This document shows, in pieces, positions 4,667-56,701 of a DNA stretch of 64,000 bases. Where the stretch lies: assembly GCA_937924905.1 (NCBI GenBank), contig CALDUK010000043.1, positions 1-64,000 on the forward strand. Direction: 5' to 3'. The DNA is from an uncultured Paracoccaceae bacterium (GTDB lineage: Bacteria > Pseudomonadota > Alphaproteobacteria > Rhodobacterales > Rhodobacteraceae). The notes beneath the pieces are model-generated. The model was not told the origin of the DNA and did no database searches. It saw only the letters and a list, made by a program, of their open reading frames with translations. Positions within the stretch are counted from its first letter, which is position 1, and each line of letters starts with the position of its first letter. A program made the position numbers and the translations under genes.

Positions 4667-5374
4667 ATGAAAAAACCACTCGCAGAATTTATTGGTACAT
4701 TCACCTTGGTGCTTTTGGGGTGCGGTTCGGCCGTTATCGCGGGCGCCGACATTGGCCTGGCTGGCATCAGCTTTGCCTTTGGTCTGGCGCTGATGGGCAT
4801 GGCCTATGGTATCGGTCCGGTTTCAGGTTGTCACATCAACCCGGCTGTGTCGCTGGGCATGGTGGCCGCGGGCCGCATGAGTTTTGCCGAGGCCATTCCA
4901 TACATTATCGCGCAGATTGCCGGTGCGGTTGCTGCGGCGTTTATCCTGTTGATGATTGCCAGCGGCAAGGCGGACTATAGCGTTGCGGAAAACGGTCTGG
5001 GCCAAAACGGCTGGGGTGCCGGATATCTGGGTGAATACTCGATGATGTCGGCGTTTATCTTCGAAGTCGTTGCAACGTTCTTGTTCATGGTTGTTATCCT
5101 TGGTTCGACCGGTGCTGGTGCACCTGCCGCTGTGGCAGGCATTGCGATCGGCTTTACCCTGGTGGTGATCCATCTGGTTGGCATCAATGTCACCGGTGTT
5201 TCGGTGAACCCTGCACGTTCGATTGGACCGGCGCTGTTTGCTGGCACGACTGCGATTGCGCAGCTTTGGTTGTTTATCGTCGCGCCAATCATCGGTGCGG
5301 TTGCCGCCGGCGTGCTGTTTGCCAGCGGTTTGCTGGACAGCGATGCGGCAGACGTTGCGGCGTCTGACGTCTAG
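4667..5374 (+). CDS. aqpZ: Aquaporin Z (MIP family channel)
   Basis: A 235-residue inner-membrane channel with six transmembrane helices and two NPA half-helices: Asn58-Pro-Ala (GCHINPAV) and Asn181-Pro-Ala-Arg (SVNPARS). The selectivity-filter residues Phe39, His169 and Arg184 match AqpZ and point to water rather than glycerol. The fourth position, Thr183 in E. coli AqpZ, is Val178 here. The start at 4667 follows AGAGGAAGGGAGA and begins MKKPLAEFIGTF. About 180 bases separate it from irr; they include the self-complementary AAAAACCGGTTTTT at 4521-4534, which may act as the irr terminator. Confidence 0.93.
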   Translation: MKKPLAEFIGTFTLVLLGCGSAVIAGADIGLAGISFAFGLALMGMAYGIGPVSGCHINPAVSLGMVAAGRMSFAEAIPYIIAQIAGAVAAAFILLMIASGKADYSVAENGLGQNGWGAGYLGEYSMMSAFIFEVVATFLFMVVILGSTGAGAPAAVAGIAIGFTLVVIHLVGINVTGVSVNPARSIGPALFAGTTAIAQLWLFIVAPIIGAVAAGVLFASGLLDSDAADVAASDV

Positions 5375-5388
5375 GTTGATGCAACTGG

Positions 5389-5418
5389 AGTGGGGCGACC
5401 CGGCAGAGTAGCCCCACT
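5389..5418. terminator. Hairpin between convergent aqpZ and SRAP genes
   Basis: AGTGGGGC at 5389-5396 pairs perfectly with GCCCCACT at 5411-5418 around a 14-base loop. It sits between the convergent stop codons. There is no T-run, so it would be a weak intrinsic terminator or a Rho-assisted stop. Confidence 0.4.
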
Positions 5419-5430
5419 TGTCCGTCGTCG

Positions 5431-6093
5431 CTAAAGGGGTGAGATCAGATCGGGGCCTTTTGCCCGGTTTGAATTCACCCCCCGATCAACGCGATGGAAC
5501 TCCAGTGCATCGGCAGGGGCCGCACGCATCAGCGTTGCGGCCCCTTTCCCTTTTTCACCAAGCCAAAGCGCCCAGTCATCGGGTGACAGAATTACCGGCA
5601 TACGGTGGTGAATGTTGGACATTTGCTGGTTCGCGGCTGTGGTGACGATGGCGCAGGTTGTGCTGGATTGGTCGTTATGGTCCCAGTGCTGCCAGATGCC
5701 CGCGAAGGTCAGGCATGGGGTGTCGTCCTTGGGATAGATATACCAAGGCAGGCGGGTGTCGTCTTTGTCCTTGGTCCATTCAAAAAACCCTGTCGCCGGG
5801 ATCAGGCAACGGCGTTCGCGGCATGCGGCTTTGAACGCGGGCTTTTCAGCAATGGTTTCGGCGCGCGCATTGATCAAAAGCGGACCATCGGTTTCCGACT
5901 TGTACCAATGGGGCAAAAAACCCCAGCGCATGGGGCGCAGGCGGCGATAACCATCTTCGCTGGTGACTGTGTGGATCAGGTTGGTGGGGCAGATGTTATA
6001 GTTGGGCATGGCCGACAGATCATTCGACGCCGTGGCGTCAAAAAGCGCCGCCATCGCATCGTCCGGCAGGGTGAGGGCAAAGCGACCACACAT
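5431..6093 (-). CDS. SOS response-associated peptidase (SRAP/HMCES-YedK family)
   Basis: SRAP proteins form a covalent thiazolidine crosslink to abasic sites in single-stranded DNA and shield them. The N-terminus MCGRFALT supplies the catalytic Cys2, which must be exposed by removal of Met1. Further family hallmarks are the Asn in YNICPTN, LINARAET with the conserved Asn-Ala-Arg-Ala-Glu, the Glu in TGFFEW, and HHRMPVILSP with the active His. The length of 220 residues is typical. It stands alone, convergent with aqpZ. Confidence 0.93.
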   Translation of the reverse strand: MCGRFALTLPDDAMAALFDATASNDLSAMPNYNICPTNLIHTVTSEDGYRRLRPMRWGFLPHWYKSETDGPLLINARAETIAEKPAFKAACRERRCLIPATGFFEWTKDKDDTRLPWYIYPKDDTPCLTFAGIWQHWDHNDQSSTTCAIVTTAANQQMSNIHHRMPVILSPDDWALWLGEKGKGAATLMRAAPADALEFHRVDRGVNSNRAKGPDLISPL

Positions 6094-6135
6094 GTGTGCA
6101 GTTTAAGCAGCGCCCGCCGCTGAGGCCAGATAGAA

Positions 6136-6165
6136 AAGGCCACCCGGGTTTTGGGTGGCCTTCTT
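6136..6165. terminator. Bidirectional intrinsic terminator downstream of rplI
   Basis: AAGGCCACCC (6136-6145) and GGGTGGCCTT (6153-6162) form a perfect 10-base stem with a 7-base loop. Read from the minus strand it ends the rpsF-rpsR-rplI transcript; A and T runs flank both sides. Confidence 0.8.
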
Positions 6166-6197
6166 TGGGTTTTTGTCGCGAAAACGAAGCGCTTGGC

Positions 6198-6857
6198 TTA
6201 GTTTGTTTCGTCTTCTGCGGTGTCTTCGCCTGCGTCGTCCGTGTCCGAACCGGCTGAATCGTCGTCCGATCCGTCGGGCGAGCGTTCCAGTTCGTCAAGC
6301 TCGGCTGCGCCGATTTCGTCGAACAGTTCCGCGATCTCCAGTTCGGCCTGAGCTTCGTCTTCGGCGGCCTGTTCGGCGATGTTGATGCCACGCGCCTGCA
6401 GTTCGGCTTCTTCTTCCGAGCGGGCAACGTTCAACTGGATTTCCGCGTCAACTTCGGGGTGCAGCGTCACAGAAACGCTGTGCATCCCCAGTTCTTTGAT
6501 CGGCGCCATCAAGGCAACCTGCCGTTTGTCGACCGAGAACCCGGCTTCGGTGGCAGCATCTGCCGCATCGCGCGGTGTGACTGACCCGTAAAGCGAACCT
6601 GCGTCCGAGGCAGAGCGGATGACGATGAACTGCTGACCATTCAGACGTTCTGCCAGACCTTCGGCTTCGGTTTTGGTTTCCAGGTTGCGGGCTTCGAGCT
6701 GTGCCTTTTCGGCGTCGAACGCCTTGAGGTTTGTTTCGGAGGCCCAGAGCGCCTTTTTCTGCGGGAACAGATAGTTGCGTGCGTAGCCGTCCTTAACGGA
6801 GACCACGTCGCCCATCTGGCCCAGCTTTGCGACACGTTCGAGAAGGATAACTTGCAT
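6198..6857 (-). CDS. rplI: 50S ribosomal protein L9 with acidic C-terminal extension
   Basis: L9 binds 23S rRNA at the base of the L1 stalk and helps keep reading frame. The N-domain [20 protein letters not shown] with [14 protein letters not shown] is canonical, followed by the long helix and the C-domain ([17 protein letters not shown]). At 219 residues it is about 70 longer than E. coli L9. The extra tail, from about residue 150, is extremely acidic (for example [20 protein letters not shown]) and probably disordered. It is last in an operon with rpsF and rpsR, 11 bases after rpsR. Confidence 0.95.
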
Positions 6858-6868
6858 GTCAGCTCTCC

Positions 6869-7096
6869 TTATTTCACGGCGTAGGGCAGAAGGGCGAGGA
6901 ACCGGGCGCGTTTTATGGCGCGGGCAAGTTCACGCTGCTTCTTGGCCGATACGGCGGTGATGCGCGAGGGCACGATTTTGCCGCGTTCGCTGATATAGCG
7001 TTGCAGAAGCTTCGTGTCCTTGTAATCAATTTTAGGTGCATTGTCGCCCGAGAAGGGGCAGACCTTGCGGCGGCGGAAAAACGGTTTTGCAGCCAT
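6869..7096 (-). CDS. rpsR: 30S ribosomal protein S18
   Basis: S18 (75 residues) binds 16S rRNA with S6 on the small-subunit platform. The sequence [21 protein letters not shown] and the basic tail [17 protein letters not shown] are characteristic. It lies between rpsF (15 bases upstream) and rplI (11 bases downstream) in the conserved order. Confidence 0.97.
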
Positions 7097-7111
7097 TATG
7101 TGTCCCTTTCT

Positions 7112-7474
7112 CTAGCGGCGATCGTCGCGACCACGGCGACCTTCGCGTTCTTCGGATTTGCGCATCTGAATCGACGGGCCTTCTTCGTGGGCGTCAACCT
7201 TGATGGTCAGAACTCGCATCACATCTTCATGGAGACGCATCAGGCGTTCCATTTCCTGCACAGCCGGTGCGGGGCTGTCGGTTTTCAGATACGCGTAGTG
7301 ACCCTTGCGGTTCTTGTTGATTTTGTAGGCCATCGTTTTGACGCCCCAGTATTCGCTTTCAACGACTTTGCCGCCGTTGTCCGCAAGGACGGTGCCAAAA
7401 TGTTCGACAAGGCCTTCTGCTTGCGTGTTGGACAAGTCCTGACGCGCAATCATCACATGCTCGTAAAGAGGCAT
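7112..7474 (-). CDS. rpsF: 30S ribosomal protein S6
   Basis: S6 (120 residues) pairs with S18 on the 30S platform. The start MPLYEHVMIARQDLSN and the core KTMAYKINKNRKGHYAYL are typical. An in-frame upstream Met would add 21 residues not found in the family; GTGGAGCACTC before the ATG at 7472-7474 supports the shorter start. The C-terminus is a charged tail (REGRRGRDDRR). First gene of the rpsF-rpsR-rplI operon. Confidence 0.97.
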   Translation of the reverse strand: MPLYEHVMIARQDLSNTQAEGLVEHFGTVLADNGGKVVESEYWGVKTMAYKINKNRKGHYAYLKTDSPAPAVQEMERLMRLHEDVMRVLTIKVDAHEEGPSIQMRKSEEREGRRGRDDRR

Positions 7475-7637
7475 GAGTGCTCCACTTCTTTTCGGGCGCA
7501 CTTCATAGGACAGTTTCATATCGCCGCGCCTGTCCACGAGAGGCTGCGCCGGTCAAACGAATTTGCGGCGAACGGGCGGTGTATACAGGGGTTTGGTGGG
7601 GAGGCAAGGGGTAAAGCTGGGTGCACAGAGATGCAAA

Positions 7638-7903
7638 ATGTATATACATATTCGCTCTGTGAGTGAATGTGGTGAGCGGCTGGCCACCCGCGTCGCTGCG
7701 GATGCATTGGATTTGTCCGAAGAATTTTGGGACGACGCCGAGATCAAGACACCGGCGGCCAAACAGGCCGTCAGCTTGCGGGTGGACCCGAAATCCTGGA
7801 ATTTTTTAAAGCCCAGGGCAGCGGGCATTTGACCAAAATGCATGCGGTTTTGCGCAGCTATGTTGATGCGAAGACCGGCAAGGATGGGCCGCGCGAGCGC
7901 TGA
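7638..7903 (+). pseudogene. BrnA-type antitoxin remnant with a frameshift
   Basis: Two overlapping frames encode one BrnA-like antitoxin. The first frame gives MYIHIRSVSECGERLATRVA through AAKQAVSLRVDP. Adding one base near 7790 continues it as EILEFFKAQGSGHLTKMHAV and LRSYVDAKTGKDG, ending at TGA 7901-7903. The segment VSLRVDPEILEFFKAQGSG followed by HAVLRSYV is the ribbon-helix-helix DNA-binding motif of BrnA antitoxins. As written, the frame stops after LKPRAAGI. No BrnT toxin lies beside it. It reads as a decayed orphan antitoxin; a sequencing error is the alternative. Confidence 0.6.
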
Positions 7904-8035
7904 TGCGGCGCTTTTCGTTCCCAAAGCGCAACAAATTCTGTTCATTAACCGTAGCTTAGCGCATTGATGCTTGTCTCATTGTTGCCATTTTCGCCTTGTA
8001 GCTATCAGGCAGGTCACACAAGGACTGAAAGCGCA

Positions 8036-8632
8036 ATGAACGCGTTCAGCGAGATAACGAGCAACGACGATCAAGACCCCCTTCTTGAGATGATCGAGAT
8101 GCCTTGGGGGTTTCGACTGCGTCCAGCGGATATGAAGGAAAAGGCCACCGATCTGATTGTCGAGTGGGGTTTGACCCTGTTGGGTGTGTCTTTGCTTTTG
8201 TGCGCCTTTGCGCAGTGGCTGCTGCCGGGGTCGCTTTACGTCGGCAATACGCTGGTTGTGAAATTGGTGCTGACTTGCGTGCTGGGCATGCTGGGCGGTT
8301 TGGCGATATCTGTGTCGGCGCGTGGGTTTCGGCCTGAAGTGCAGGTCGATCGTACGCGCCAGGAAATCCGGTTTGTTTCGCGCAATCCGCGGGGACGCGG
8401 GCAGATCCTTGCGACCGTCGATATAGAATCCATCATCGGCGTCGGGATTACACGGTCGCTGACGACGGGCGATTGTCATTGTCTGATCTATTTGATCGAT
8501 GGGCAAAAACCACTGCGGATCGCGACTGGAACGGAAGCTGAAATTCGCATTATCCGCGAGAAGATGGACGACTATGTCACCCCGGCGCACGAACGTCTGG
8601 CCGCAAAGATGGCGGCCAAGCCTGCCGCTTAA
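8036..8632 (+). CDS. Membrane protein of unknown function
   Basis: A 198-residue protein not recognised as a named family. After a soluble N-terminal part (MNAFSEITSNDDQDPLLEMI) there are two hydrophobic segments, about residues 44-65 (GLTLLGVSLLLCAFAQWLLP) and 72-98 (LVVKLVLTCVLGMLGGLAIS). A cytoplasmic or periplasmic beta-rich domain follows, similar in pattern to PH-like domains (VQVDRTRQEIRFVSRNPRG). The start at 8036 is chosen because the upstream in-frame sequence lacks a ribosome site. It stands alone, 52 bases before the aminotransferase gene. Confidence 0.75.
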   Translation: MNAFSEITSNDDQDPLLEMIEMPWGFRLRPADMKEKATDLIVEWGLTLLGVSLLLCAFAQWLLPGSLYVGNTLVVKLVLTCVLGMLGGLAISVSARGFRPEVQVDRTRQEIRFVSRNPRGRGQILATVDIESIIGVGITRSLTTGDCHCLIYLIDGQKPLRIATGTEAEIRIIREKMDDYVTPAHERLAAKMAAKPAA

Positions 8633-8684
8633 GGTGTCTTTGCACGCTTGACGCCGCGCTGGTTCCGGCGTTCTTTCTGACACT

Positions 8685-9908
8685 ATGAAATCCTTGGACA
8701 TCAATGTCGTGCGCGGGCACTTCCCCGCGTTTTCCGAACCTTCGCTGGACGGGCAGGCGTTTTTTGAGAACGCAGGCGGCGCATATCCCTGCCGATTTGT
8801 CACCGACCGGTTAGAACGGTTCTATCGGGCACGCAAAGTGCAGCCGTATGGCCCGTTCAACGCCAGCCGTCTGGCGGGCGAGGAAATGGACGAGGCGCAA
8901 ACGCGGCTGGCCGCAATGATGGGCGTGGCGTCTGACGAGCTGAGCTTTGGGCCATCGACGACGCAAAATGTCTATGTGCTGGCGCAGGCTTTTCGGCAGT
9001 GGCTGTCGCCTGGCGATGCGATTGTCGTCAGCGAACAGGATCACGAGGCCAATGCAGGCGCATGGCGGCGATTGGCCGATGCGGGAATTGAACTTCGTGA
9101 ATGGCGGATCGACCCCGAGACCGGTCACCTTGATCCCGCAAAGCTTGAGCCTTTGCTGAACGGCGCAAAGCTGGTTGCTTTTCCGCATTGTTCGAATGTG
9201 GTGGGCGAGATCAATGATGTGGCCGCGATCACGGCAATGGCCCATGCCGCAGGTGCCGTGGTTTGCGTTGATGGGGTCAGTTACGCGCCCCACGGTTTGC
9301 CGAATGTTGGCGCGCTTGGCGCTGATATCTATTTGTTCTCGGCCTATAAAACATACGGGCCCCATCAGGGCTTGATGATTGTTCGGCGCGATCTGGGTGA
9401 GCAGCTTCCCAATCAGGGGCATTTTTTCAACGGCAACCATCTGGACAAGCGGTTTACGCCGGCAGGGCCAGACCACGCGCAGGTCGCTGCCTGCGCCGGT
9501 ATGGCGGACTATGTGGATGCATTGGCGGCGTCGTTGGGTGTGGGGTCGGACGCGCCAGAGGTGCGGGCCACCTATGTGCATGATGCGATGCGGGCGCGCG
9601 AAGAAGCGTTGCTAAAGCCGCTTTTGGCTTATGTTGCGGGGCGAAACGATATCCGGGTGATCGGGCCGTCCGATGCACGTCGCCGTGCACCGACGGTGGC
9701 GATTGCGGCCGAGCGTTCGGGCGAGGCTTTGGCGGCCGATTTGGCGAGGCATGGAATAAATGCGGGCGGGGGAGATTTTTATGCTGTCCGACCGTTGAAG
9801 GCGATGGGCGTGGACCCGTCGCACGGTGTTTTGCGGCTGAGTTTCGTGCATTACACGCACGAAGATGAGGTGGCGCGCTTAATCGCCGCTTTGGATCAGG
9901 TGCTTTGA
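8685..9908 (+). CDS. Class V aminotransferase / cysteine-desulfurase-like protein
   Basis: A 407-residue PLP-dependent enzyme of the SufS/IscS-related class V group. The PLP lysine lies in FSAYKTYGPHQG, with the upstream Asp in VCVDGVSYAPHG and the His in VSEQDHEAN. The C-terminal half ends with a domain containing GVLRLSFVHYTHEDEV. It resembles the stand-alone cysteine-desulfurase-like subfamily rather than the suf or isc operon enzymes; no iron-sulfur genes are nearby, and the active-site Cys loop of true SufS is not evident. The substrate is therefore uncertain. Confidence 0.82.
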   Translation: MKSLDINVVRGHFPAFSEPSLDGQAFFENAGGAYPCRFVTDRLERFYRARKVQPYGPFNASRLAGEEMDEAQTRLAAMMGVASDELSFGPSTTQNVYVLAQAFRQWLSPGDAIVVSEQDHEANAGAWRRLADAGIELREWRIDPETGHLDPAKLEPLLNGAKLVAFPHCSNVVGEINDVAAITAMAHAAGAVVCVDGVSYAPHGLPNVGALGADIYLFSAYKTYGPHQGLMIVRRDLGEQLPNQGHFFNGNHLDKRFTPAGPDHAQVAACAGMADYVDALAASLGVGSDAPEVRATYVHDAMRAREEALLKPLLAYVAGRNDIRVIGPSDARRRAPTVAIAAERSGEALAADLARHGINAGGGDFYAVRPLKAMGVDPSHGVLRLSFVHYTHEDEVARLIAALDQVL

Positions 9909-9995
9909 TCGTTGTGTGACCCCGCGCGGGTTTTCGGGTGCCGTTGACGCGGTGCGTTTCGGGCTAGGTACTGCCCAGCAGTAAGCGGAGGGCGC

Positions 9996-11402
9996 ATGGC
10001 ACCTGTCATTTGGTGGGTTCGGAAAGATCTGCGGATAGGCGACAACCCTGTCTTGATGGCAGCTGTTGCGGCAGGTGGTCCGGTGATCCCGGTGTTCGTG
10101 CTTGACGAGGTTTTCGAAACCTATGGAGCTTGTCCGCTGTGGCGGTTCGGGCTGGGGGTCGAGAAACTGGCCGAGGCGTTAAAGGCCAAAGGCACGCGCT
10201 TGGTTCTGCGGCGGGGCAAAGCAGAAGATGTGTTGGCCTCGCTGGTTGCGGAAACCGGTGCGACCACAGTGCGCTGGGGCCGGGCTTATGACCCCGAACA
10301 GGTCGCGCGCGATACAGCTGTGAAAACGCGGCTTGAGAAAACCGGCGTTGACGCCAAAAGCGTGGCCGGTCACTTGTTGTACGAGCCGTGGTCGGTCGAG
10401 ACCGGGGCCGGCGGATATTACCGGGTCTACACGCCGTTTTGGCGGTCAGTGAAAAACATGGATGTTCGGTCACTTGAGGCCGAGCCGGACCTGCCGGTGC
10501 CGGATGTCTGGCCCGAAGGTGACAGTCTGGACGATTGGGCGCTGGGATCTGCAATGCAGCGCGGGGCGCGGGTGGTCGGTGCCCATGTCTGCGTGGGCGA
10601 GGCTGCGGCGCGCGACCGGTTGGAGGCTTTCATTCAGACCCGGGTCGCCGATTATAAAGAGCGGCGGGATTTTCCCGGCGAGTCGGCGACGTCGATGCTT
10701 TCGGAAAACCTGGCCTGGGGCGAGATTTCGCCCGCTGCCCTTTGGCATGCGGGTGTCCGGGCTATGGAAGACGGCGGGCACGGCGCGGAACATTTTCTGA
10801 AAGAAGTGGTTTGGCGCGAGTTCGCTTATCACCTGATTTGGCACACGCCCCATATCACGTCGCAAAGCTGGCGTGCGGGGTGGGAACGATTTCCCTGGGG
10901 GGAAGAGGAGACCGACGAGGTTGTTGCCTGGAAACGGGGTCGGACTGGCGAGCCTTTTGTCGATGCCGCTATGCGCGAGATGTATGTCACGGGACAAATG
11001 CACAACCGCGCACGAATGATTGTGGCAAGCTATCTTACAAAACACTTGTTGGCGCATTGGCGGATTGGCCAGAAGTGGTTTGAAAATTGTCTGATCGATT
11101 GGGACCCGGCATCGAACGCGATGGGATGGCAATGGGCGGCTGGGTCCGGTCCAGATGCCGCGCCCTATTTCCGTGTGTTCAATCCCGCGACGCAGTTGGA
11201 CAAGTTTGACCGGGACGGGGCGTATCGCCGGGCCTGGATTGCCGAAGGCGAAGTGAGGCCCAGTGCGACGGCGCTTGCCTATTTCGAGGCTGTCCCCAAA
11301 AGCTGGGGTTTGTCGGCGGACGATTCGTACCCAGAGCGTATTGTCGATCTGGCCGAGGGACGGCAGCGCGCGCTTGCGGCCTATGCGGCGCGAGACTTTT
11401 AG
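9996..11402 (+). CDS. phrB: Deoxyribodipyrimidine photo-lyase
   Basis: A 468-residue photolyase/cryptochrome family protein that uses FAD and blue light to split UV-induced pyrimidine dimers. The N-terminal alpha/beta antenna domain starts MAPVIWWVRKDLRIGDNP. The FAD-binding helical domain contains LKEVVWREFAYHLIW, GRTGEPFVDAAMREMYVTG with MHNRARMIVASYLTK, and NCLIDWDPASNAMGWQW with the conserved Trp residues. Length and order of motifs fit class I CPD photolyases. A GCGGAGGGCGC ribosome site precedes the ATG. A hairpin terminator follows at 11441. Confidence 0.93.
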   Translation: MAPVIWWVRKDLRIGDNPVLMAAVAAGGPVIPVFVLDEVFETYGACPLWRFGLGVEKLAEALKAKGTRLVLRRGKAEDVLASLVAETGATTVRWGRAYDPEQVARDTAVKTRLEKTGVDAKSVAGHLLYEPWSVETGAGGYYRVYTPFWRSVKNMDVRSLEAEPDLPVPDVWPEGDSLDDWALGSAMQRGARVVGAHVCVGEAAARDRLEAFIQTRVADYKERRDFPGESATSMLSENLAWGEISPAALWHAGVRAMEDGGHGAEHFLKEVVWREFAYHLIWHTPHITSQSWRAGWERFPWGEEETDEVVAWKRGRTGEPFVDAAMREMYVTGQMHNRARMIVASYLTKHLLAHWRIGQKWFENCLIDWDPASNAMGWQWAAGSGPDAAPYFRVFNPATQLDKFDRDGAYRRAWIAEGEVRPSATALAYFEAVPKSWGLSADDSYPERIVDLAEGRQRALAAYAARDF

Positions 11403-46062: not shown

Positions 46063-47154
46063 TTAAATACCTGCCAACACTTCTTTGACTACGGCTTTCG
46101 TCCCCATGTCGCCGCCAAACTCCATCGGCCTTAGGCGATTGTCGGCAAAGCCATTTTCGACCGCTGTTTCGATCAAAGCGGCTGCATCGGCATAACCGGG
46201 GACACTTGCGCGTTCCGAAAGGTAATCAAGCATAAGCGCGGCAGACAGGATAGCAGCCAAGGGATTTGCGCGATTTTGGCCCATTATATCCGGGGCCGAG
46301 CCATGCGCAGGTTGGAACAGTCCGTGATGGTCCCCGATTTCTGCGCAGGCCGCCATACCCATGCCACCGACAAGCCCACCGGCTAGATCGGAAAGAATGT
46401 CGCCGAACATGTTTTCCATGACCAATACATCAAAGTCCCAAGGCTTGCGTACAAGGTCTAGCGCTTGCGCGTCCACATAGTTGTAGCCAGTCGTGATGTC
46501 TGGAAACTCGGGCCGTATTTCGTCAAAAATTTTGCGGAAGAATGCCATTGAAGCAAAGACATTTGCCTTGTCGACACAGGTCACAGCACCGGGTTTGCCG
46601 CGCTCTTTTCGCCGTGTGGCAAGCCGAAAGGCAAAACGGTGCAGGCGTTCACTGATATCCCGGGTGATCCGCAAAGTGTCACGGACTTCCGTGTCACCTC
46701 GAATGTCGGACCGTCCATGAGCGGCGGCGGAATAAAACAGCCCTTCGGTTGACTCCCGTAGGATCACCAGATCAATCCCGGCAGCGCGGGGGTCGGCCAA
46801 CCTCTGCGGTGCGTTGGGATAGGCTTTGACCGGTCGGACGCCCGCATAAAGCCCGAATATGTCACGAATTCGAAGGTGTGGGCTGATCTCGGTCCCATCG
46901 TCATGCCGGACAGATGGCAAGCCTATAGCCCCTAGAAATATTGCATCCGCCGCGCCCGCGCGTTTTTCGCCACCAGGTTCAATATCGCGTCCGGTGTCTT
47001 TGAAATATCCGGCCCCCGCCAGGATCTGATCATAGTGAATTTCTGGCAGGCCCACCTGTGCCACAGCGCGATTTGCCACCGCGATTGCGGCCTCTGCGAC
47101 GTCGATGCCGATGCCATCCCCTTTTATAAGCGCGACGCTAAGGCGGTTCGTCAT
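46063..47154 (-). CDS. Isopropylmalate/tartrate/malate-type decarboxylating dehydrogenase
   Basis: A 363-residue member of the isocitrate/isopropylmalate dehydrogenase family. [13 protein letters not shown] opens the fold; the substrate loop [19 protein letters not shown] with the catalytic Lys, [20 protein letters not shown] and [20 protein letters not shown] complete the site, and [19 protein letters not shown] is the NAD-loop signature. No leuCD is near, so LeuB is unlikely; tartrate or D-malate dehydrogenase is more plausible in a dicarboxylate gene block. Substrate specificity cannot be settled by eye. Confidence 0.82.
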
Positions 47155-47391: not shown

Positions 47392-49785
47392 ATGCAAGGC
47401 AACGAGGTCGTAGACCTGTTAAAATATCGGGATGTTGACGCGGAATCAGACGGTTCCGCGCAGGGCGAGCCGCAATATCTTGCGGCCGGGACCGAGCTAC
47501 TTCTGGGTCAATACAAAATTGATGGCTATCTGAATTGCGGCGGTTTTGGCATTACCTATTTTGCTCAGGACAGTCTGCAACGCCGTGTCGTCATCAAGGA
47601 ATGTTTCCCAAGCGAGCTTGTCTATCGCACGGGCGCGGCGATGGCGCCGCGAAGTGCAAAGTTCAAAAACGACGTCGCTGCGATCGTCCACCACTTCGTT
47701 CGTGAAGCGCATCGTTTGGCCAATGTCCGGCACGACAATATTGTTCACGTCCATCAGATCTTTGAAGAAAACGACACCGCCTATATGGCGATGGACTATG
47801 TCGACGGTCCTGATCTTCTGGATGTTCTCGAAGGCAGCGCGACCCGTTTTTCGCCCAATGCGGTGCAAGACCTGACGCGCAAAATGCTGTGCGCGATCAA
47901 GTTTGTGCATGATCACGGCATGCTGCATCGCGACATTTCGCCTGACAACATTCTGATTGATACACGCGGTGAACCCGTTCTCATCGATTTTGGCGCGGCG
48001 CGAGAACATGCGCAGAAAAATCACAAGGCGATGTCGAAACTGAAATTCGTCAAGGACGGGTATTCGCCGCAGGAATTTTATATCTCGGGCAGTGAACAAG
48101 GCCCGTGGAGCGACCTGTATTCGTTCGCAGCCACGATCTATCATGTCATTGCCGGATATGCGCCGGCCGAAGCGCAGGTCCGGCTTGCAGCTTTGGCCGC
48201 CAAAGACCCTGATCCATACGAGCCATTGGCATCGCGCATAAGCGGCTATCCGGCCAGATTTTTGAAGGCCATTGATATGGCGCTGAATGTCATTCCTGAT
48301 CAGCGCATTCAGACTGCGGATGATTGGCTTGCAATCTTACCTGCGGCTTCTTCCAAACCGAACCCCATGACCGTGAAGCCAAAGTCGGCGCTGGTCGACC
48401 ACATGTCGGTTGCAGCCGCCATGCATTATACCCCCAAATCGAAAGTGGCGTTGCTTGTGGCAGGCGTGGCGGTTTTGCTGGTTGGTGGCGGCATTTTCCT
48501 TTTGCCATCCGGTGGGGCGCCAGAAGGTGAGTTTGCTGCAAATAGCCTTGTCGAACCACCGTCTGTGGTCACCGGTCAGGAAACGACAGCCGATGGTGCC
48601 AGCGGCGAAAACCCAGCGTTTGCAAACGAGCCTGTCCAGCGACCCGCCGAAGATGTGTTAACCCCCAGCCTAGACGTCGATACGTTGGCCTTGACCGTCC
48701 CAAAGCCGGTAACGTCGCCAGATGTGCGACCGGCGCCCAGACCGTTGCTGCCGATTGAATTGGGCCAGTCTTTCCCGACGCCCGCCACGGATGCGCCAGT
48801 GGATCTGACGCTGGACCAACCCGTCCCGACTTTCGAAGCAGCGGGACTGTCGCTCACCGTTCCGGGTGAGGTTGCAACCTTCGTGCCATTTGCGGCCCCA
48901 GTGCCGCCAGCGCGTACAGAAATGATTGTGGCCCTGCCTGAAATTGAAGTGCCGGCGCCCGTCAAACTGCAAGTGGAGTCTTTGCCCGGCAAGTTGGCGG
49001 TGCCGATCAATATCGGCTCGCTTGAAGCAACACCACTAGTCGGCGAGCCGTCCGCGACCGGCTTGGCTGCAATTGTTCCGGTAGAACGTCATGCATCTTT
49101 GGCAGAGCTTGCCGCGCCTACACCAGACACAAGCGTTTCAGCGGACATAAACCCGCCTGCGGCCTATGTGCCCAAAGGGTCGATCCTGGATCAGCAAGTT
49201 GCCTATTCGCATTGGGACGTCCAAATGCCATTTGAAAGCGTCGCAGAACGCGTGCGGTCTGCGGACACGATCACAATCACAGACGTCAGCGAAACCGCCG
49301 ATTTGTCTGTGTCAGGCGAATGGATCGCTGAAGGCGTCGTTATCTATTCTTTCAATGGCGAACGCCTGATCGAAAACACCCCCTTGTCCGTTCACGTTCT
49401 AAAAGCAATGACCGTGGACCCCGACGGGTTTGCCCGGTCAACCGTCCGGTACCGCGACCCGTCGAAAGGTGTTCTCGATCGTGCGTTGCTGGCCGTGCCG
49501 GTTTTTCGCGAAACGGGTTTGAAAGATGGAACCGTTTTGCGAAGTCGTCAGGTCGGTGACGCCTGGGTGGTCGAAGTCGCGTCGGTTGGTCCAAACTCGG
49601 GCGGGCTTGTTGCGGGCGATTTTCTGAAGTCCGAAGCGACGACCGGCATAGAAATAAATGACCACGAAGCCATCGGGCGCATCCTTGATGCGCTCCGCGC
49701 GAACGCCGCGCCAAGTGCGAATTTCACGGTTTTGCGCAACGGGTCACGTCAACAAGCCGAATGGCGGTTGGCACGCGGAGAATAA
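47392..49785 (+). CDS. Membrane-anchored Ser/Thr protein kinase
   Basis: A 797-residue protein with an N-terminal kinase domain (about residues 38-305). The glycine loop is LNCGGFGITYFA, the ATP lysine is Lys69 in VVIKECFP, the catalytic loop HRDISPDN is at 179-186 (Ser where many kinases have Lys), and DFG is at 199-201. A single transmembrane segment lies at about 352-373 (VALLVAGVAVLLVGGGIFLL). A long Pro/Ala-rich periplasmic linker (about 380-590) leads to a C-terminal domain whose end has a PDZ-like pattern. The start at 47392 is chosen because longer frames overlap the dehydrogenase gene. Two LysM-binding-protein genes follow. Confidence 0.85.
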   Translation: MQGNEVVDLLKYRDVDAESDGSAQGEPQYLAAGTELLLGQYKIDGYLNCGGFGITYFAQDSLQRRVVIKECFPSELVYRTGAAMAPRSAKFKNDVAAIVHHFVREAHRLANVRHDNIVHVHQIFEENDTAYMAMDYVDGPDLLDVLEGSATRFSPNAVQDLTRKMLCAIKFVHDHGMLHRDISPDNILIDTRGEPVLIDFGAAREHAQKNHKAMSKLKFVKDGYSPQEFYISGSEQGPWSDLYSFAATIYHVIAGYAPAEAQVRLAALAAKDPDPYEPLASRISGYPARFLKAIDMALNVIPDQRIQTADDWLAILPAASSKPNPMTVKPKSALVDHMSVAAAMHYTPKSKVALLVAGVAVLLVGGGIFLLPSGGAPEGEFAANSLVEPPSVVTGQETTADGASGENPAFANEPVQRPAEDVLTPSLDVDTLALTVPKPVTSPDVRPAPRPLLPIELGQSFPTPATDAPVDLTLDQPVPTFEAAGLSLTVPGEVATFVPFAAPVPPARTEMIVALPEIEVPAPVKLQVESLPGKLAVPINIGSLEATPLVGEPSATGLAAIVPVERHASLAELAAPTPDTSVSADINPPAAYVPKGSILDQQVAYSHWDVQMPFESVAERVRSADTITITDVSETADLSVSGEWIAEGVVIYSFNGERLIENTPLSVHVLKAMTVDPDGFARSTVRYRDPSKGVLDRALLAVPVFRETGLKDGTVLRSRQVGDAWVVEVASVGPNSGGLVAGDFLKSEATTGIEINDHEAIGRILDALRANAAPSANFTVLRNGSRQQAEWRLARGE

Positions 49786-49852
49786 TTTGGCCCGTGTTAA
49801 GGGCTTTTGGCGAGTGCAGCAGTTTTATAAAGAAAACAAAAGGATACAGGCA

Positions 49853-50902
49853 ATGCAACGATTTGCAGCAGCGGTGTTCATATTTCTGACGTCGCTATTC
49901 TTTGGCCCCGAAACCGCCAATGCCCAAGACGCCTGCGAACTTTATCGGGTCAAACGCGGCGATACGCTGCGCGAGATCGCGAAAGCCGCGTATGGCGACA
50001 AGAACTTTCGTCGGGTGTGGAACGCAAACCGAGCCGAGATTGGGCGAAACCCTAATGTGATAACGGTGGGTATCGTTCTGAGGCTTCCGTGCCTTGATGG
50101 CAGTATGCCGGAACGGGACCGTGGCGCGAACACGACCGCGACAGGTACAGGCGATGTCACCTTTGTCACGGCAAACGGGTATCTGCCATACACAGATGAA
50201 AGTTTGCCCAAAAGCGGGCTTTTTACTCATCTGGTTGCAAACGCGATGGTCCGCGGCGCGCCGGACACATCGTTCGACATTGTCTTTGTCAATGACTGGG
50301 CGGCGCATGTCGAAACGCTTTTGCCGCGACAGGCGTTTGACGCCAGTTTCCCGTGGACACGCCCAGGCTGCGAAACACAGGGCATGATGACCGACGCGGA
50401 ACTCTATGCCTGCCAGAATTTCGTCTATAGCGACCCATTCTACGAAATCGTGGACGGTTTCTTTGCGCGCACCGGGTCAGGGTTCGAAAAAATCATTTCG
50501 TTCTCGGACCTGACAGGCAGCCGCATCTGTCGGCCAGAAGGCTATCCGACCGGCCATCTTGAAGAGCAAGGTCTGATGACGGCGGATGTCACGCTTTTGC
50601 AGCCGACCAGCGTATCGCGGTGTTTCGAACTGTTGATGTCGGGCAAGGCCGATCTGGTGGCGCTGGACACGCGAGCAGGCGAGCGTGCCGTCAGTGACAT
50701 GGGGCTGGAAGGACAGGTGTCTGAAAACCCGCATCTGTTTGCCATCCAACCGTTGCGCATCGCGCTTCACAAATCCAACCCGAAATCCGCGCAACTGATC
50801 TCGGACCTCAATACCGGTCTGCGGATCATGCTGGAAAGCGGCGAATGGTCGGCCATCGTATCGGACGCTCTGAAAGAGCAAACCGCCGCCATGATGAACT
50901 GA
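49853..50902 (+). CDS. Secreted LysM plus solute-binding-like protein, copy 1
   Basis: A 349-residue exported protein. Residues 1-24 are a signal peptide ending TANA. A LysM domain at about 30-79 (YRVKRGDTLREIAKAAYGDK and NPNVITVGIVLRLPC) should bind peptidoglycan. The rest resembles family 3 periplasmic solute-binding proteins, with DIVFVNDWAAHVETLLPR and RICRPEGYPTGHLEEQGL. The LysM is bracketed by two cysteines that may pair. It follows the kinase by 67 bases and is paralogous to the next gene. Confidence 0.8.
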   Translation: MQRFAAAVFIFLTSLFFGPETANAQDACELYRVKRGDTLREIAKAAYGDKNFRRVWNANRAEIGRNPNVITVGIVLRLPCLDGSMPERDRGANTTATGTGDVTFVTANGYLPYTDESLPKSGLFTHLVANAMVRGAPDTSFDIVFVNDWAAHVETLLPRQAFDASFPWTRPGCETQGMMTDAELYACQNFVYSDPFYEIVDGFFARTGSGFEKIISFSDLTGSRICRPEGYPTGHLEEQGLMTADVTLLQPTSVSRCFELLMSGKADLVALDTRAGERAVSDMGLEGQVSENPHLFAIQPLRIALHKSNPKSAQLISDLNTGLRIMLESGEWSAIVSDALKEQTAAMMN

Positions 50903-50913
50903 AGGAGAGAGCC

Positions 50914-52101
50914 ATGAAGATGATTTCCCTTACTTCGACGAACACAAAAGACCGGGGCACCGGCACATCCCAGAAATTGATTGAGAGAGTGAGCAGAACC
51001 ATGTTGAAACCATTGACCAAAATGCTGGTGGCCCTTCCGTTGGCACTGTCGACGTTGACGACACTACCAACCGACGCCGCCGCGCAAGAAGCCTGTACCA
51101 GTTACACTGTCCAGCCGGGCGACACGCTGGGCAGTATTGCGGACGCGGCGTATGGATCGTTTGACTATCAAACGATCTTCAACGCGAACCGGAACCAGAT
51201 TACCAACCCAAACACGCTGGAAAAGGGCGTTGTGCTGCAGCTGCCTTGTGAAGACGGCAGTCTGCCCGGCGGCGCCTCTGCGCAACAAATCATTGCCCAA
51301 GCTGAAACCGACGCACAATCGCGCGCGGCGGGTGCAAACAGCTTTGAGCCACCGATCAAAGTTGTTTCGGCAAATGGCTGGGCCCCGTTTGTGGGTGAAA
51401 ACTTCACCGATGGCGGGATGTTGGTGCGCATCGCCACAACAGCTCTGAACCGGGGCGGGAACAGCCGCGACTACAATGTCAGCTTCGTCGATGACTGGGG
51501 CGCGCATCTTTCGACACTTCTGCCGCTTGGTGCGTTTGATGTGTCGATCGCATGGTACATGCCGGATTGTTCGAAGATTGACCTTCTGTCCGAAGGTATG
51601 GCCAAGCGTTGTACTGAACTGGATGCGTCACTTCCTGTTTATGAATCGGTCGTTGGCTTTTTCACAATGCCTGGCAACGAATATGAAGGTGTTCGGAACT
51701 ATGCCGATTTTGCGGGCGCGCGCATCTGTCGCCCGGAAGGATGGTTTACCTTTGATCTTGAAGAGCAAGGCCTGATCGAACCTGTTGTCACCATGGTTGC
51801 ACCGAAGTCTGTCGAAGACTGCTTTGAGAAAATGGCGGCTGGTGAGGTTGATGTTGTTCCGCTTGAGATCGAAAGCGTTGCAAGTGCTGCAAGTGCTTTG
51901 GGGATCGACGCAGAGATCGTTCAGAACCCTTATCTGACCAACCTTTTGAGCATGAGCTTTGTTACCCACAAGACCAATCCGCGCGGGCGCGTCTATATCG
52001 CTATGCTGAACCGCGGGATCACCGAGATGCGCGAATCCGGTGAATGGTATGCGATTATCTCGGATTCTCTGGCCGAGTTTAACAATATGAAAACCAACTG
52101 A
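50914..52101 (+). CDS. Secreted LysM plus solute-binding-like protein, copy 2
   Basis: A 395-residue paralogue of the preceding protein. The LysM domain reads YTVQPGDTLGSIADAAYGSF and continues NPNTLEKGVVLQLPCEDGSL. The binding-like domain has NVSFVDDWGAHLSTLLPLGA and RICRPEGWFTFDLEEQGLIE, aligned with copy 1. A signal peptide begins at Met30 (MLKPLTKMLVALPLALS); a strong GGAGAG site supports 50914, but the ATG at 51001 is a realistic alternative that puts the signal peptide at the N-terminus. A terminator follows at 52122. Confidence 0.8.
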   Translation: MKMISLTSTNTKDRGTGTSQKLIERVSRTMLKPLTKMLVALPLALSTLTTLPTDAAAQEACTSYTVQPGDTLGSIADAAYGSFDYQTIFNANRNQITNPNTLEKGVVLQLPCEDGSLPGGASAQQIIAQAETDAQSRAAGANSFEPPIKVVSANGWAPFVGENFTDGGMLVRIATTALNRGGNSRDYNVSFVDDWGAHLSTLLPLGAFDVSIAWYMPDCSKIDLLSEGMAKRCTELDASLPVYESVVGFFTMPGNEYEGVRNYADFAGARICRPEGWFTFDLEEQGLIEPVVTMVAPKSVEDCFEKMAAGEVDVVPLEIESVASAASALGIDAEIVQNPYLTNLLSMSFVTHKTNPRGRVYIAMLNRGITEMRESGEWYAIISDSLAEFNNMKTN

Positions 52102-52121: not shown

Positions 52122-52152
52122 AAAGGTCCCGGCAATGTCCGGGCCCTTTTTC
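52122..52152 (+). terminator. Intrinsic terminator after the kinase-LysM block
   Basis: AAAGGTCCCGG (52122-52132) pairs with CCGGGCCCTTT (52139-52149) with one mismatch and a six-base loop; the T-run continues to 52151. Confidence 0.8.
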
Positions 52153-52489: not shown

Positions 52490-53158
52490 ATGATCTTCTC
52501 CAGTAAACCTTCGGACGACGGGACGATTGTTGAACTTTTGGCCTCAACGCTGCGTCGAGACATTGCATTTGGCACTCTTCTTCCGGATCAGAAACTGAAG
52601 ATCGAAGAATTGCGCCGCCGGTATGGCGGTTCGAACCATTCGATGCGGGAGACGTTGCGCATTCTGTCGACCGAAGGGCTGGTAGAGGCAACCGCACAGC
52701 GCGGGTTTCGCGTGACGTCGGCGACCGAGGACGACCTGCGCGACATTCAACTTGTTCGGGTCGAGATTGAGCGCGTTGCCTTGGCCCGCGCTATTGAGAA
52801 CGGAGACGTGGCTTGGGAGGGCAGGGTGATTGCGGCGCATCACGCACTGCGGCGGGCCGAAACGGCCGTGATTGACGCGCCAGACGATCTGACGGCGCTG
52901 GAATGGGACGAAGCCTGCAGGGCTTTTGCCCAAGCTTCGATCGCGGCGTGCCAATCGCCTCGTATGATTGATTTGCACCGCAAGTTCTTCGATCAAAGCC
53001 GCCGGTTCCGGCTGGCACAAATGCGCGAGGGTAAACTGGATTGGACAGCGCGCAAGCAGCGTCAGGATAAGTTGCTTGAAGCCATTCTTGCTAAAGATAA
53101 AGGCGCAGCAAGCGCCCTGTTACAACAAGACATCGAGGCAGAGCTGAAGACAAAATAA
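52490..53158 (+). CDS. GntR-family regulator (FCD-type) beside an ABC importer
   Basis: A 222-residue regulator with the winged helix LKIEELRRRYGGSNHSMRET and LRILSTEGLVEATAQRGFRV. The C-terminal FCD-like domain includes VRVEIERVALARAIENGD. It precedes an SsuA/NMT1-type ABC operon by 21 bases on the same strand and probably controls it in response to the imported ligand. The ligand is unknown. Confidence 0.88.
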   Translation: MIFSSKPSDDGTIVELLASTLRRDIAFGTLLPDQKLKIEELRRRYGGSNHSMRETLRILSTEGLVEATAQRGFRVTSATEDDLRDIQLVRVEIERVALARAIENGDVAWEGRVIAAHHALRRAETAVIDAPDDLTALEWDEACRAFAQASIAACQSPRMIDLHRKFFDQSRRFRLAQMREGKLDWTARKQRQDKLLEAILAKDKGAASALLQQDIEAELKTK

Positions 53159-53179
53159 GTGATCAAAGGGAGGAAGATC

Positions 53180-54193
53180 ATGACACACCTAAACCGCCGT
53201 AAGGCACTGGCCCTGTTGGGTGGAACCGTCGCTGTGTCTGGGCTTGCTGCCCCGGCCATTGCCGGGAACGCAAAAATCAAAGTGGGCGCTTTGCGCTTCA
53301 CCTCGCATTCGGGCAACTTTATCGCGCTTGAGCGCGGTTACTTTGCGGATGCCGGCCTTGACGTTGAATTTGAGTTTTTCCAGGCCGCGCAGCCCATGGC
53401 CGTGGCCGTCGCCTCGGGCGATGTGGATTATGCCGTGACTGCAATGTCGGGCGGGTTGATCAGCCTGGCTCAGAAAGGCGCGATCAAAGTGATCGGCGGC
53501 GCATTGAGCGAAGAAGCGGGAATAGACGGGCAGAAGTTTCTTGCTTCGGATTCAGCATTTCAGGCGGGTGTAAAAACGCCAAAAGACTTGGCCGGTAAGA
53601 AGTTCGCCGTGACGCAAGCCGGGTCGTCATTCCACTACATGGGCGCGAAGATGGCGCTGGCCGAAGGCATTGAGATGTCGTTCACGCCGCTCCAGAAGGT
53701 GGGAGCAATTATCGGTGCGATGAAGTCGGGCCAGGTTGACGGGTGGTCGATTGTGCCGCACATCGCCAAGCCTTTGGCCGGTTCGGGCGCGGTTCATATC
53801 ATCGGCAACGTTGCGGACTACATCCCTGATTATCAGGTGACCACCGTCTTCACCTCGGCCAAAAATGCGGCTGATGAGCGTGGCCAGACCGAGAGCTTCC
53901 TTGCTGGTTTCTCAAAAGGTGTGGATGATTATGCCGCTGCGATGATTGATCTGACCGCGGATCAGGACGCAATGGTGGATCTAATCCACCAGTACGTCTA
54001 CACGGATCGCCCGCGCGAGAAGGCTGCACCTTCGATCATCAACGGCACGATGCGCCTGAACAAGGGCGCGGCTTTGAATATCGCATCTATTCAAGACCAA
54101 CTTAGCTGGTTCCAATCCGAAGGGCTGGTGGACGCCGATATCACCCTTGATCAGGTGGTGGATCAATCGTTCGTCGACATTCTCGGTGCATAA
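53180..54193 (+). CDS. ABC transporter periplasmic binding protein (NMT1/SsuA-like)
   Basis: A 337-residue exported binding protein. The N-terminus MTHLNRRKALALLGGTVAVS carries a Tat-like or Sec signal that ends near APAIAG. The core has SGNFIALERGYFADAGLDVE and ASGDVDYAVTAMSGGLISLA, the pattern of the NMT1/THI5 and SsuA/TauA group, whose ligands include sulfonates, taurine, nitrate and pyrimidines. AGGGAGGAAGATC precedes the ATG. The ATP-binding and permease subunits follow. Confidence 0.87.
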   Translation: MTHLNRRKALALLGGTVAVSGLAAPAIAGNAKIKVGALRFTSHSGNFIALERGYFADAGLDVEFEFFQAAQPMAVAVASGDVDYAVTAMSGGLISLAQKGAIKVIGGALSEEAGIDGQKFLASDSAFQAGVKTPKDLAGKKFAVTQAGSSFHYMGAKMALAEGIEMSFTPLQKVGAIIGAMKSGQVDGWSIVPHIAKPLAGSGAVHIIGNVADYIPDYQVTTVFTSAKNAADERGQTESFLAGFSKGVDDYAAAMIDLTADQDAMVDLIHQYVYTDRPREKAAPSIINGTMRLNKGAALNIASIQDQLSWFQSEGLVDADITLDQVVDQSFVDILGA

Positions 54194-54240
54194 TCCTGCA
54201 ATCAGGGGCCGGCCACGGTCGGCCCCGTTGGTATAATTCC

Positions 54241-55008
54241 ATGGATATCCGGCTCGATAACATCACTCATTCCTACGATGACTTTGAGATCATGCGTGAC
54301 ATCTCGCTGGATATTCCCAGTGGGCAGATCGTGTGTATCGTGGGGCCATCGGGCTGTGGGAAATCCACGCTTTTGCGCATTATCGGCGGGTTGGAACGGC
54401 CCTCTAGCGGAGCGGCTTTGCAATTGGGGGAGCCGCCGGCAGGTTGCCTTAACCCTCTGACATACATCTTTCAGGATTTTGCCCTGCTGCCATGGCGCAG
54501 TGTGGCGGGGAATGTGTCGCTGGTGCTGGAAGACCACGGCATCAAAGATGCAAAAGCGCAGGCCATTATCGATGACGTGTTGGCACGTACGAAGCTAGCG
54601 GATTTTTCCAAAGCGTTGCCAAAACAATTATCGGGGGGGATGAAACAACGCGTGGCCATCGCCCGCGCCTTAGCGGTAAACCCGGCAGTGATGCTGATGG
54701 ACGAACCGCTTTCGGCGCTCGACAGCCAGACGCGCGAACTTTTGATGGATGATCTGGTGGATCTCTGGACGCGTCAACCGTTTACAGCCATCTATGTCAC
54801 GCACAATCTTGCTGAGGCCGTGCGGCTTGGGCACCGCGTTGTGGTTCTGTCGCGCCGGCCCGGACAAATCCGCGAGGTTGTCGACATCGACAAGCCGTTG
54901 GCCGAACGCGCATTTGGCGATGCCGATTTAGACTCCCATCAAAAGCATCTGTGGCAGTTGATGCGCGACGAAGCGCGGGCTGCGGATGCGGAACTGATCA
55001 ATGTCTGA
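54241..55008 (+). CDS. ABC transporter ATP-binding protein (SsuB/TauB-like)
   Basis: A 255-residue ATPase. Walker A is VGPSGCGKSTLLRIIGG, the Q-loop is TYIFQDFALLPWR, the signature is QLSGGMKQRVAIARAL, Walker B is VMLMDEPLSALD and the switch His is in IYVTHNLAEA. It fits the nitrate/sulfonate/taurine importer subfamily. It overlaps the permease gene by 8 bases. Confidence 0.94.
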   Translation: MDIRLDNITHSYDDFEIMRDISLDIPSGQIVCIVGPSGCGKSTLLRIIGGLERPSSGAALQLGEPPAGCLNPLTYIFQDFALLPWRSVAGNVSLVLEDHGIKDAKAQAIIDDVLARTKLADFSKALPKQLSGGMKQRVAIARALAVNPAVMLMDEPLSALDSQTRELLMDDLVDLWTRQPFTAIYVTHNLAEAVRLGHRVVVLSRRPGQIREVVDIDKPLAERAFGDADLDSHQKHLWQLMRDEARAADAELINV

Positions 55009-55795
55009 CACCGGAAAATCAGTCGTCTTTCGCGGCGGCGGCTTCGCCCCTAAATCGCGCCGATGGGTCGGGTTAGCGGTTTTCGTCGGGTTGATTGCAA
55101 TCGCGGAATGGGGCACACGGTCGGGCTGGATCTCGGCTCTGACCATGCCCAAGCCTTCGGACGTGTTGGAAACCTTCCGCGAACTTTACGACAGCGGATT
55201 GTTGTTCAAACATCTTGGCCCGTCGCTGTCGCGTCTTGTCGTTGGAGCAACCATCGGAGTGAGCGTCGGGATCAGCGTCGGCGTCTTGATCGCGTTGTTC
55301 TCATATATACGGTCCGGCTTGGTCCCGCTTGTTGCTGCGATCTTCCCTATCCCGAAGATCGCTTTGCTGCCGCTTTTCGTCATTTGGTTTGGTATTGGCG
55401 AAGGATCGAAATACGCACTGATTGCCTTTGGCACATTCACCCCGACGGTTGTGGCAACATATGGTGCTGTCGACAATGTGGACCGAACGCTGATCCGCAT
55501 GGGTCAAAGCTTTGGGCTGTCTTGGTGGTCGATTGTCAGAAAGATTGTTCTGCCGGGTGCCATGCCCGGAATTTTGTCCGGCTTACGCATAAGCCTTGCC
55601 ATCGCAATCATCCTGCTGGTCGCCGCGGAAATGCTTGGGGCAGAGTTCGGCATTGGCGCTTACATCCTAGAAGCAGGTTCGCTCTATGATCTCGAGCGTC
55701 TATTCGCAGGCGTCGTCATCCTTTCGCTGCTGGGCGTCATCGTAAGTTCGCTCATTGGGTTGGTTGAACTCTGGCTACTAGACTGGCGCACATAG
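55001..55795 (+). CDS. ABC transporter permease (SsuC/TauC-like)
   Basis: A 264-residue permease with about six transmembrane helices. The coupling-helix (EAA) loop reads SFGLSWWSIVRKIVLPGAMP followed by GILSGLRISLAIA. It completes the importer with the two preceding genes. The end of the gene lies only about 55 bases from the left end of an IS3 remnant. Confidence 0.93.
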   Translation: MSDTGKSVVFRGGGFAPKSRRWVGLAVFVGLIAIAEWGTRSGWISALTMPKPSDVLETFRELYDSGLLFKHLGPSLSRLVVGATIGVSVGISVGVLIALFSYIRSGLVPLVAAIFPIPKIALLPLFVIWFGIGEGSKYALIAFGTFTPTVVATYGAVDNVDRTLIRMGQSFGLSWWSIVRKIVLPGAMPGILSGLRISLAIAIILLVAAEMLGAEFGIGAYILEAGSLYDLERLFAGVVILSLLGVIVSSLIGLVELWLLDWRT

Positions 55796-55850: not shown

Positions 55851-56620
55851 ATGATCCTCCCCCACTGAAGTGGTCCTCCGCTATGTTTAGGAAAACGGAG
55901 GAAACACATGGCCAACAAGAGACCGAATCCCGAAGAGATTGTCACAAAGTTGCGACGGGTTGAGGTCCTGACGGGCCAAGGGATGACGCGTCTGGATGCG
56001 GTCCGTCAGATTGGTGTGACTGAACAGACGTTTTACCGCTGGAAGAAGAAGGACGGTGGAATGGGCACGGTTCAATTGAAAGAACTGAAGCGTCTGCAAA
56101 AAGAAAACGAACGGCTGCGCAAAGTCGTTTCTGATCTGACGCTTGATAGGCTGATCCTTGCGGAAGCTGCGAAGGGAAACTTTTAAGCCCCGCTCGCCGC
56201 CGTGCTTGCATTGATCCTGTTCGTGCCGAGCTGAGGGTCTCAGAACGTCGCGCTTGCCGTGTTTTGCGGCAGCATCGATCCACGCGGCGGCAGATGCCAG
56301 TTGGTCGCGCTGATGAAGAACGGTTGGTGGCCGACATGATCGGGCTGACCCCGCAATATAGCCGCTACGGCTATCGTCGGATAGCAACGCTGCTGCGAGA
56401 TGCAGGTTGGCATGTGAATGACAAGCGCGTCGAAAGATCGTGGCGACGAGAGGGGCTGAAAGTGCCAATGAAACAACCAAAGAAAGGGCAGCTCTGGCTT
56501 AATGATGGGTCCTGCGTTCGACTACGACCACAGCGTCGCAATCATGTTTGGAGCTATCACTTCGTGCATTGCCGGACTGACGATGGGAAAGCGTTCCGCA
56601 CGTTGAACATCATTGAACCC
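55851..56620 (+). mobile_element. Truncated IS3-family (IS407-like) insertion sequence
   Basis: The left part of an IS3-family element is present. It starts near TGATCCTCCCCCACTGAAG at about 55851, followed by the leader ending GGAGGAAACAC before orfA. orfA is intact; orfB, in the -1 frame, is cut after about 145 residues near 56620, before most of the DDE core. No matching right inverted repeat (GTCCACTTCAGT-type complement) was found downstream. The copy cannot transpose by itself. Confidence 0.8.
55908..56186 (+). CDS. IS3-family transposase OrfA
   Basis: A 92-residue helix-turn-helix protein: NPEEIVTKLRRVEVLTGQGM, then EQTFYRWKKKDGGMGTVQLK and a leucine-zipper-like stretch ELKRLQKENERLRKVVSDL. 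This is the DNA-binding half of an IS3 transposase. It appears complete, although its orfB partner is broken. Confidence 0.9.
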   Translation: MANKRPNPEEIVTKLRRVEVLTGQGMTRLDAVRQIGVTEQTFYRWKKKDGGMGTVQLKELKRLQKENERLRKVVSDLTLDRLILAEAAKGNF

Positions 56621-56701
56621 CGCAAAACGCTCTCTGAGACTATTGGCAGAATTTGTCTGAAATCGGTGGGTGTCATCAGTCTCTGGATGCGCATACCCTA
56701 G
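56186..56701 (+). pseudogene. IS3-family transposase OrfB, truncated
   Basis: The frame -1 to orfA reads SPARRRACIDPVRAELRVSE, then RYGYRRIATLLRDAGWHVND and KRVERSWRREGLKVPMKQPK, the HTH_21 part of OrfB. The first DDE aspartate, expected in a WSYDFV-type motif, is His here (VWSYHFVHCRTDDG). Similarity ends at FRTLNIIEP near 56620; the final 27 residues are unrelated. The remaining DDE residues are missing, so it is inactive. Confidence 0.85.

Follow-up and report, generated by a model that had tools for sequence, protein, structure and literature searches.

The window, a 64,000 nucleotide stretch of DNA from an uncultured Rhodobacteraceae bacterium (genome of 2.98 Mb, 94% complete), carries at 47392-52101 three open reading frames on the plus strand: a kinase and then two proteins, A and B, which each join a LysM domain to a solute-binding protein (SBP) domain and are referred to here as LysM-SBPs. 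This arrangement, a Ser/Thr transmembrane kinase followed by two LysM-solute-binding proteins, had been put forward in the original prediction and was borne out by the open reading frames, Pfam searches, a family profile and Foldseek. Upstream, the unit is bordered by a dehydrogenase gene that runs divergently from it (46063-47154, minus strand), and it ends in a rho-independent terminator-like hairpin (52128..52150, plus strand) with a stem at 52128-52143 followed by a T run. The intergenic gaps are 67 nt between the kinase and A and either 11 or 98 nt between A and B, according to the start codon assigned to B; the ribosome-binding site is better for a start at 50914, and the signal peptide agrees with a start at 51001. 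No FHA gene and no PP2C gene stand beside the three genes in the window. Directly 3' of the module, at 52490-55795, lie genes for a GntR/FCD regulator, an NMT1-type SBP and an ABC transporter, and what by eye appears to be the remnant of an IS3-type transposase gene is found at 55887-56701.

The kinase (47392..49785, plus strand, 797 aa) has a cytoplasmic kinase domain at approximately residues 38-330 (47503..48381), which was matched by Pfam Pkinase with an E value of 1.6e-31. The catalytic motifs GGFGIT, VIKE, HRDISPDN, DFGAAR and GYSPQE could all be located, and with its Gly loop, Lys, HRD and DFG present the protein reads, from its sequence, as a Hanks-type Ser/Thr kinase. Past a single TM helix (residues 352-370, 48445..48501, mean hydropathy 2.69), the long periplasmic part that had been predicted is indeed there and can be refined into two portions. 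The first is a disordered, Pro/Ala-rich linker of 231 residues (48502..49194, 16% Pro), the length of which ranges from 72 to 259 residues across 64 relatives; the second is a folded domain (KinC, 49195..49782) which begins at residue 602 and is predicted to be a DegP/RseP-like tandem PDZ, with two PDZ folds in series. The conserved C-terminal region of about 195 residues was modeled by AlphaFold with a pLDDT of 96.4 (the model spans 49174-49782). A profile built from this region in 44 relatives matched the PDZ domains of DegP/DegQ (best E 7e-4), the nearest folds found by Foldseek were the PDZ pairs of DegP and RseP, and in VIA-align both halves of KinC were covered by DegP PDZ1-PDZ2 (3cs0) over 170 residues at 3.5 A, Z 8.2. 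Like the PASTA kinases (PknB, PrkC, StkP), the protein has one TM helix and an external portion directed towards the wall. However, no PASTA match was obtained by Pfam (E<=0.1), and the score against NF033483 (PknB/Stk1) was 113.6 bits, below the cut-off of 450. Since the external part is a linker and a predicted PDZ pair with no PASTA repeats, a PASTA kinase was rejected, in agreement with the difference in design that had been proposed, and contact with the wall would go via partner proteins.

LysM-SBP A (49853..50902, plus strand, 349 aa) and LysM-SBP B (51001..52101, plus strand, alternative start 50914) are predicted to be secreted, with Sec-type signal peptides read by eye as ANA-QDAC in A and AAA-QEAC in B, the hyphen marking the cleavage site. 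Their LysM domains, which would bind the GlcNAc glycan of peptidoglycan, lie at 49943..50089 in A (Pfam E 0.003) and 51103..51246 in B (E 2.6e-6), and the SBP domains at 50150..50899 and 51343..52098, respectively. Pfam run on the single sequences of A and B called no SBP domain and would mislead if taken alone; the SBP identity was established from the family profile and the structure match. SBP_bac_3 (PF00497) was matched in 25 of 49 members of the LysM-SBP family, the family profile found amino-acid SBPs (E 3.7e-6), and an AF2 model of B covering both domains (pLDDT 91.5) led Foldseek to Arg- and Gln-binding proteins (E about 1e-13, best 1.4e-13). On this modeling, A and B appear to be divergent family-3 amino-acid-type SBPs with a two-lobed fold. 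Six Cys residues are invariant in 207 of 207 aligned LysM-SBPs, which suggests three disulfides. Transferrin-like PDB matches of the SBP profiles were set aside, as they reflect the common SBP-like fold. The BvgS-type histidine kinases, found as a structural match by Foldseek, also use the SBP_3 (Venus flytrap) fold in signaling, but there it is fused to a histidine kinase and has no wall anchor, unlike A and B.

In family-3 SBPs an Arg holds the ligand carboxylate, and Arg and Asp together hold the amino-acid ligand. The solute-binding-like domain of the original prediction can be assigned to family 3 (SBP_bac_3), with the qualification that in the window's genome the ligand Arg is kept by B and lost by A: when mapped by profile alignment, B has Arg with Glu at the Asp position, and A has Ala and Asp. 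By the same alignment the Arg is retained in 72/77 A and 63/90 B proteins, with losses from A in the window's lineage (to Ala) and from B in the Tabrizicola lineage (to Met), and at each of the 76 loci that encode A as well as B, one or both of the two have it. As this pattern amounts to few evolutionary events, it is no more than suggestive. The C-termini of the two proteins are mostly Gly, Asn or Gln. The usual ligands of PDZ domains are hydrophobic C-termini, so capture of the C-terminal tail of A or B by the PDZ pair is not favored.

A check of co-occurrence had been proposed along with the original prediction, and the genes are not separated in most relatives. Scanning genome contigs with B as the query recovered 79 loci, a selection by B likeness that favors linked loci. 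A kinase gene precedes the LysM-SBP genes in the same orientation in 76 of them; of the rest, one contig starts at A and two loci are without a kinase. The order kinase-A-B repeats across dozens of genomes in which the flanks differ, and the association is thus not due to chance. Genes for an FHA protein and a PP2C phosphatase occur in 47 of the 79 loci and a dynamin-like GTPase gene in 40, so that the usual module is larger than three genes. The order in Ruegeria is GTPases-kinase-FHA-PP2C-A-B and that in Defluviimonas and Leisingera kinase-A-B-FHA-PP2C-GTPases, while Tabrizicola and the window have kinase-A-B alone. The family-3 SBP fold might also suggest that A and B serve as solute receptors for an orphan ABC transporter of amino acids, their link to the kinase being accidental. 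This explanation is very improbable, as no conserved permease or ATPase gene was found next to the A-B pair in any surveyed locus, the window's own ABC genes, located beyond 53159, go with the NMT1-type SBP in a separate unit behind the terminator, and wall anchoring would be odd for a shuttle.

In a second survey, an even sample of 198 genomes of the family, the KinC kinase was found in 17 (E<=1e-15) and a LysM-SBP in 30 (E<=1e-30); the LysM-SBP was kinase-linked in 9 of these 30, with one link inferred across a contig break. No KinC was found outside the Rhodobacteraceae in 385 genomes of the class (E<=1e-12). The notion of kinase and LysM-SBPs as one module holds for the conserved set, but LysM-SBP fusions also occur away from kinases in many Rhodobacteraceae and by genus are commoner in that form (of the 30 genomes with matches, about 21). 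At L122, L123, L124, L141 and L142, LysM-SBPs belonging to another clade are likewise arranged as tandem pairs, without a kinase in the vicinity. In the trees the kinase-linked A and B proteins form two separate, old clades (SH-aLRT 97 and 99), and the LysM-SBPs away from kinases branch outside both; the exception is the LysM-SBP of L116, which is kinase-linked and groups with the unlinked ones. The kinases of LysM loci likewise form a clade (97), apart from FHA-only kinases. Two members of this clade, from L129 and L130 (the latter of the same genus as the window's genome), are without an SBP neighbor, probably owing to gene loss, with gaps in the MAGs also possible. A subfamily of DctP-type SBPs (56% identical) also adjoins KinC kinases, at L131 5813-6874 and L116 2524-3543.

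Sister kinases that have no LysM-SBP usually lie near a gene for a PBP_like_2-OmpA protein, which was found at eight loci (L128, L131, L132, L134, L135, L143, L150 and also L116) and as a disrupted copy in L136. The OmpA wall-binding motif is retained in six of the seven copies inspected, L132 giving no match, and a PBP_like_2-OmpA gene is absent from all of the LysM loci L006-L084. Genomes carry from 0 to 6 such genes, and chance would place one within 12 kb of the kinase in approximately 1-3% of cases per genome. The window's own genome has a second kinase locus of this kind (L128, G000:C34:3000-20000, about 2641-10104, minus strand), with a KinC kinase, FHA, PP2C, a GTPase and PBP_like_2-OmpA and with no LysM-SBP. 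Judged from sequence, one kinase type is paired with two unrelated SBP families on two wall anchors, which supports sensing from SBP to kinase; we consider this dual pairing the strongest evidence in support of the SBP as the sensor of the kinase.

Alternatively, the LysM-SBPs may be outputs: the kinase pathway would set how much of them is made or secreted, hence their co-transcription with the kinase, and on the wall they would act as scavengers or have a structural role. This would fit the presence of the kinase, A and B in one transcription unit with one terminator, as well as the wide occurrence of LysM-SBPs without a kinase, which implies some kinase-independent use. Nonetheless, we find it rather unlikely: a Ser/Thr kinase would not readily be expected to control transcription of the operon that encodes it, the swap to a structurally unrelated wall-anchored SBP at the sister kinases is easier to understand as a change of sensor, and the folded periplasmic domain of the kinase needs a partner. 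It could also be proposed that the tandem PDZ senses peptides that are misfolded or derive from the wall, in the manner of DegS and RseP, with A and B acting as modulators or being neutral neighbors. The PDZ pair does resemble the DegP, DegS and RseP sensors, and the L129 and L130 kinases stand alone, but the linkage of kinase and SBP twins is old and clade-wide and the sister kinases are linked in parallel to PBP_like_2-OmpA, so that we hold this possibility to be improbable.

The reading that we favor, with moderate confidence, is that the kinase, A and B form a periplasm-to-cytoplasm signaling unit in which the SBPs sense, the PDZ pair of the kinase reads, and FHA, PP2C and the GTPases act downstream. 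As the gene set is kept together across many Rhodobacterales, it probably lets the wall compartment report a small molecule to the kinase. A and B would be secreted and held on peptidoglycan by LysM, and their family-3 cleft may bind a small amino-acid-like solute. We infer that the tandem PDZ, reaching the wall on its long flexible linker, would contact the SBPs and read their open versus closed (ligand-bound) state, and that the signal would then pass inward through the single TM helix and alter the activity of the kinase. In the cytoplasm, the conserved KT(T/R)xLGF of the FHA protein could serve as a phospho-Thr switch that the PP2C phosphatase would reset, with the dynamin-like GTPases as possible membrane effectors. 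The genes for this proposed downstream arm adjoin the module in most relatives; FHA and PP2C are absent at the window locus and present at the second kinase locus of the same genome, and the output of the window locus would thus have to act in trans. Gene order and its conservation, the predicted folds, the Arg and Asp/Glu pattern and the clade structure are consistent with this mechanism, while the absence of the ligand Arg from A in the window's lineage, the L129 and L130 kinases with no SBP neighbor and the often kinase-free LysM-SBPs argue against it. An envelope-sensing role, as first suggested, appears to be the best reading and is strengthened by the second wall-anchored SBP type of the sister kinases, although FHA, PP2C and dynamin-like GTPases have to be added to the module as it was then described. 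More tentatively, and with rather less confidence, a general Rhodobacteraceae design may be envisaged, in which peptidoglycan-tethered receptors (LysM-SBP_3 twins or PBP_like_2-OmpA) are read by one tandem-PDZ Ser/Thr kinase type, such that sensing of a small molecule at the wall would set both an FHA phospho-switch and membrane-remodeling dynamin-like GTPases.

Control of a Ser/Thr kinase by an external family-3 SBP, as proposed here, has a parallel in the actinobacterial GlnH-GlnX-PknG-OdhI/GarA pathway, in which an SBP_3 regulates PknG (PMC6069109, PMC9769921). Furthermore, the FHA proteins of the module share R.KT(T/R)xLGF ahead of the FHA domain, which may parallel the ETTS motif that is phosphorylated on Thr ahead of the FHA domain in GarA and OdhI (PMC8546545); by this analogy the FHA protein would be a substrate here. 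However, GlnH is a lipoprotein that is not anchored to the wall, whereas the SBPs described here are twins, LysM-anchored, and have no lipobox Cys at the cleavage site: in their AxA-Q(D/E)AC signal peptides the Cys, three residues past cleavage, is the invariant LysM Cys, and identity with a lipoprotein GlnH was rejected on this ground. Relay to the soluble PknG is the task of GlnX, a membrane protein in its own right; the kinase described here has its own TM helix and carries a PDZ pair at its end, and in the loci read no GlnX-like gene was found among the genes or next to them. The dynamin-like GTPases linked to the module and the different phylum also set it apart. The module may work like GlnH-GlnX-PknG but is not a member of that pathway, because it has no lipobox, no GlnX, a membrane PDZ kinase and wall anchors.

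Streptomyces coelicolor likewise has a Ser/Thr kinase whose presumed sensor is a family-3-like SBP, listed in 2005 as a fusion of the kinase to a solute-binding domain of the Glu/Gln type (PMC1262709); here the SBP is separate and wall-anchored. A membrane kinase, a PP2C and an FHA protein are encoded together in the T6SS PpkA-PppA-Fha system, as in the loci of the window's relatives, but here there are SBP partners instead and, unlike in that system, no vWA domain was found. A T6SS threonine phosphorylation kinase was rejected, since the VipA/TssB sheath gene (PF05591) was not found in the window's 94% complete genome. No description of LysM with SBP_bac_3, of PDZ with a Hanks kinase or of FHA/PP2C/dynamin sets was met in a literature search that covered few subscription journals. 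The compact gene set supplies candidates for the sensor (the wall-anchored SBPs), the receptor domain (the PDZ pair) and the output (FHA, PP2C and GTPases), the same kinase type being paired with two independent types of sensor, and its presence in culturable Ruegeria, Leisingera and Tabrizicola makes it accessible to experiment. The dynamin-like GTPases (L022 922-2205, L011 14212-16314, L125 1640-3679 and their relatives) adjoin kinase, FHA and PP2C genes and often number two or three per locus.
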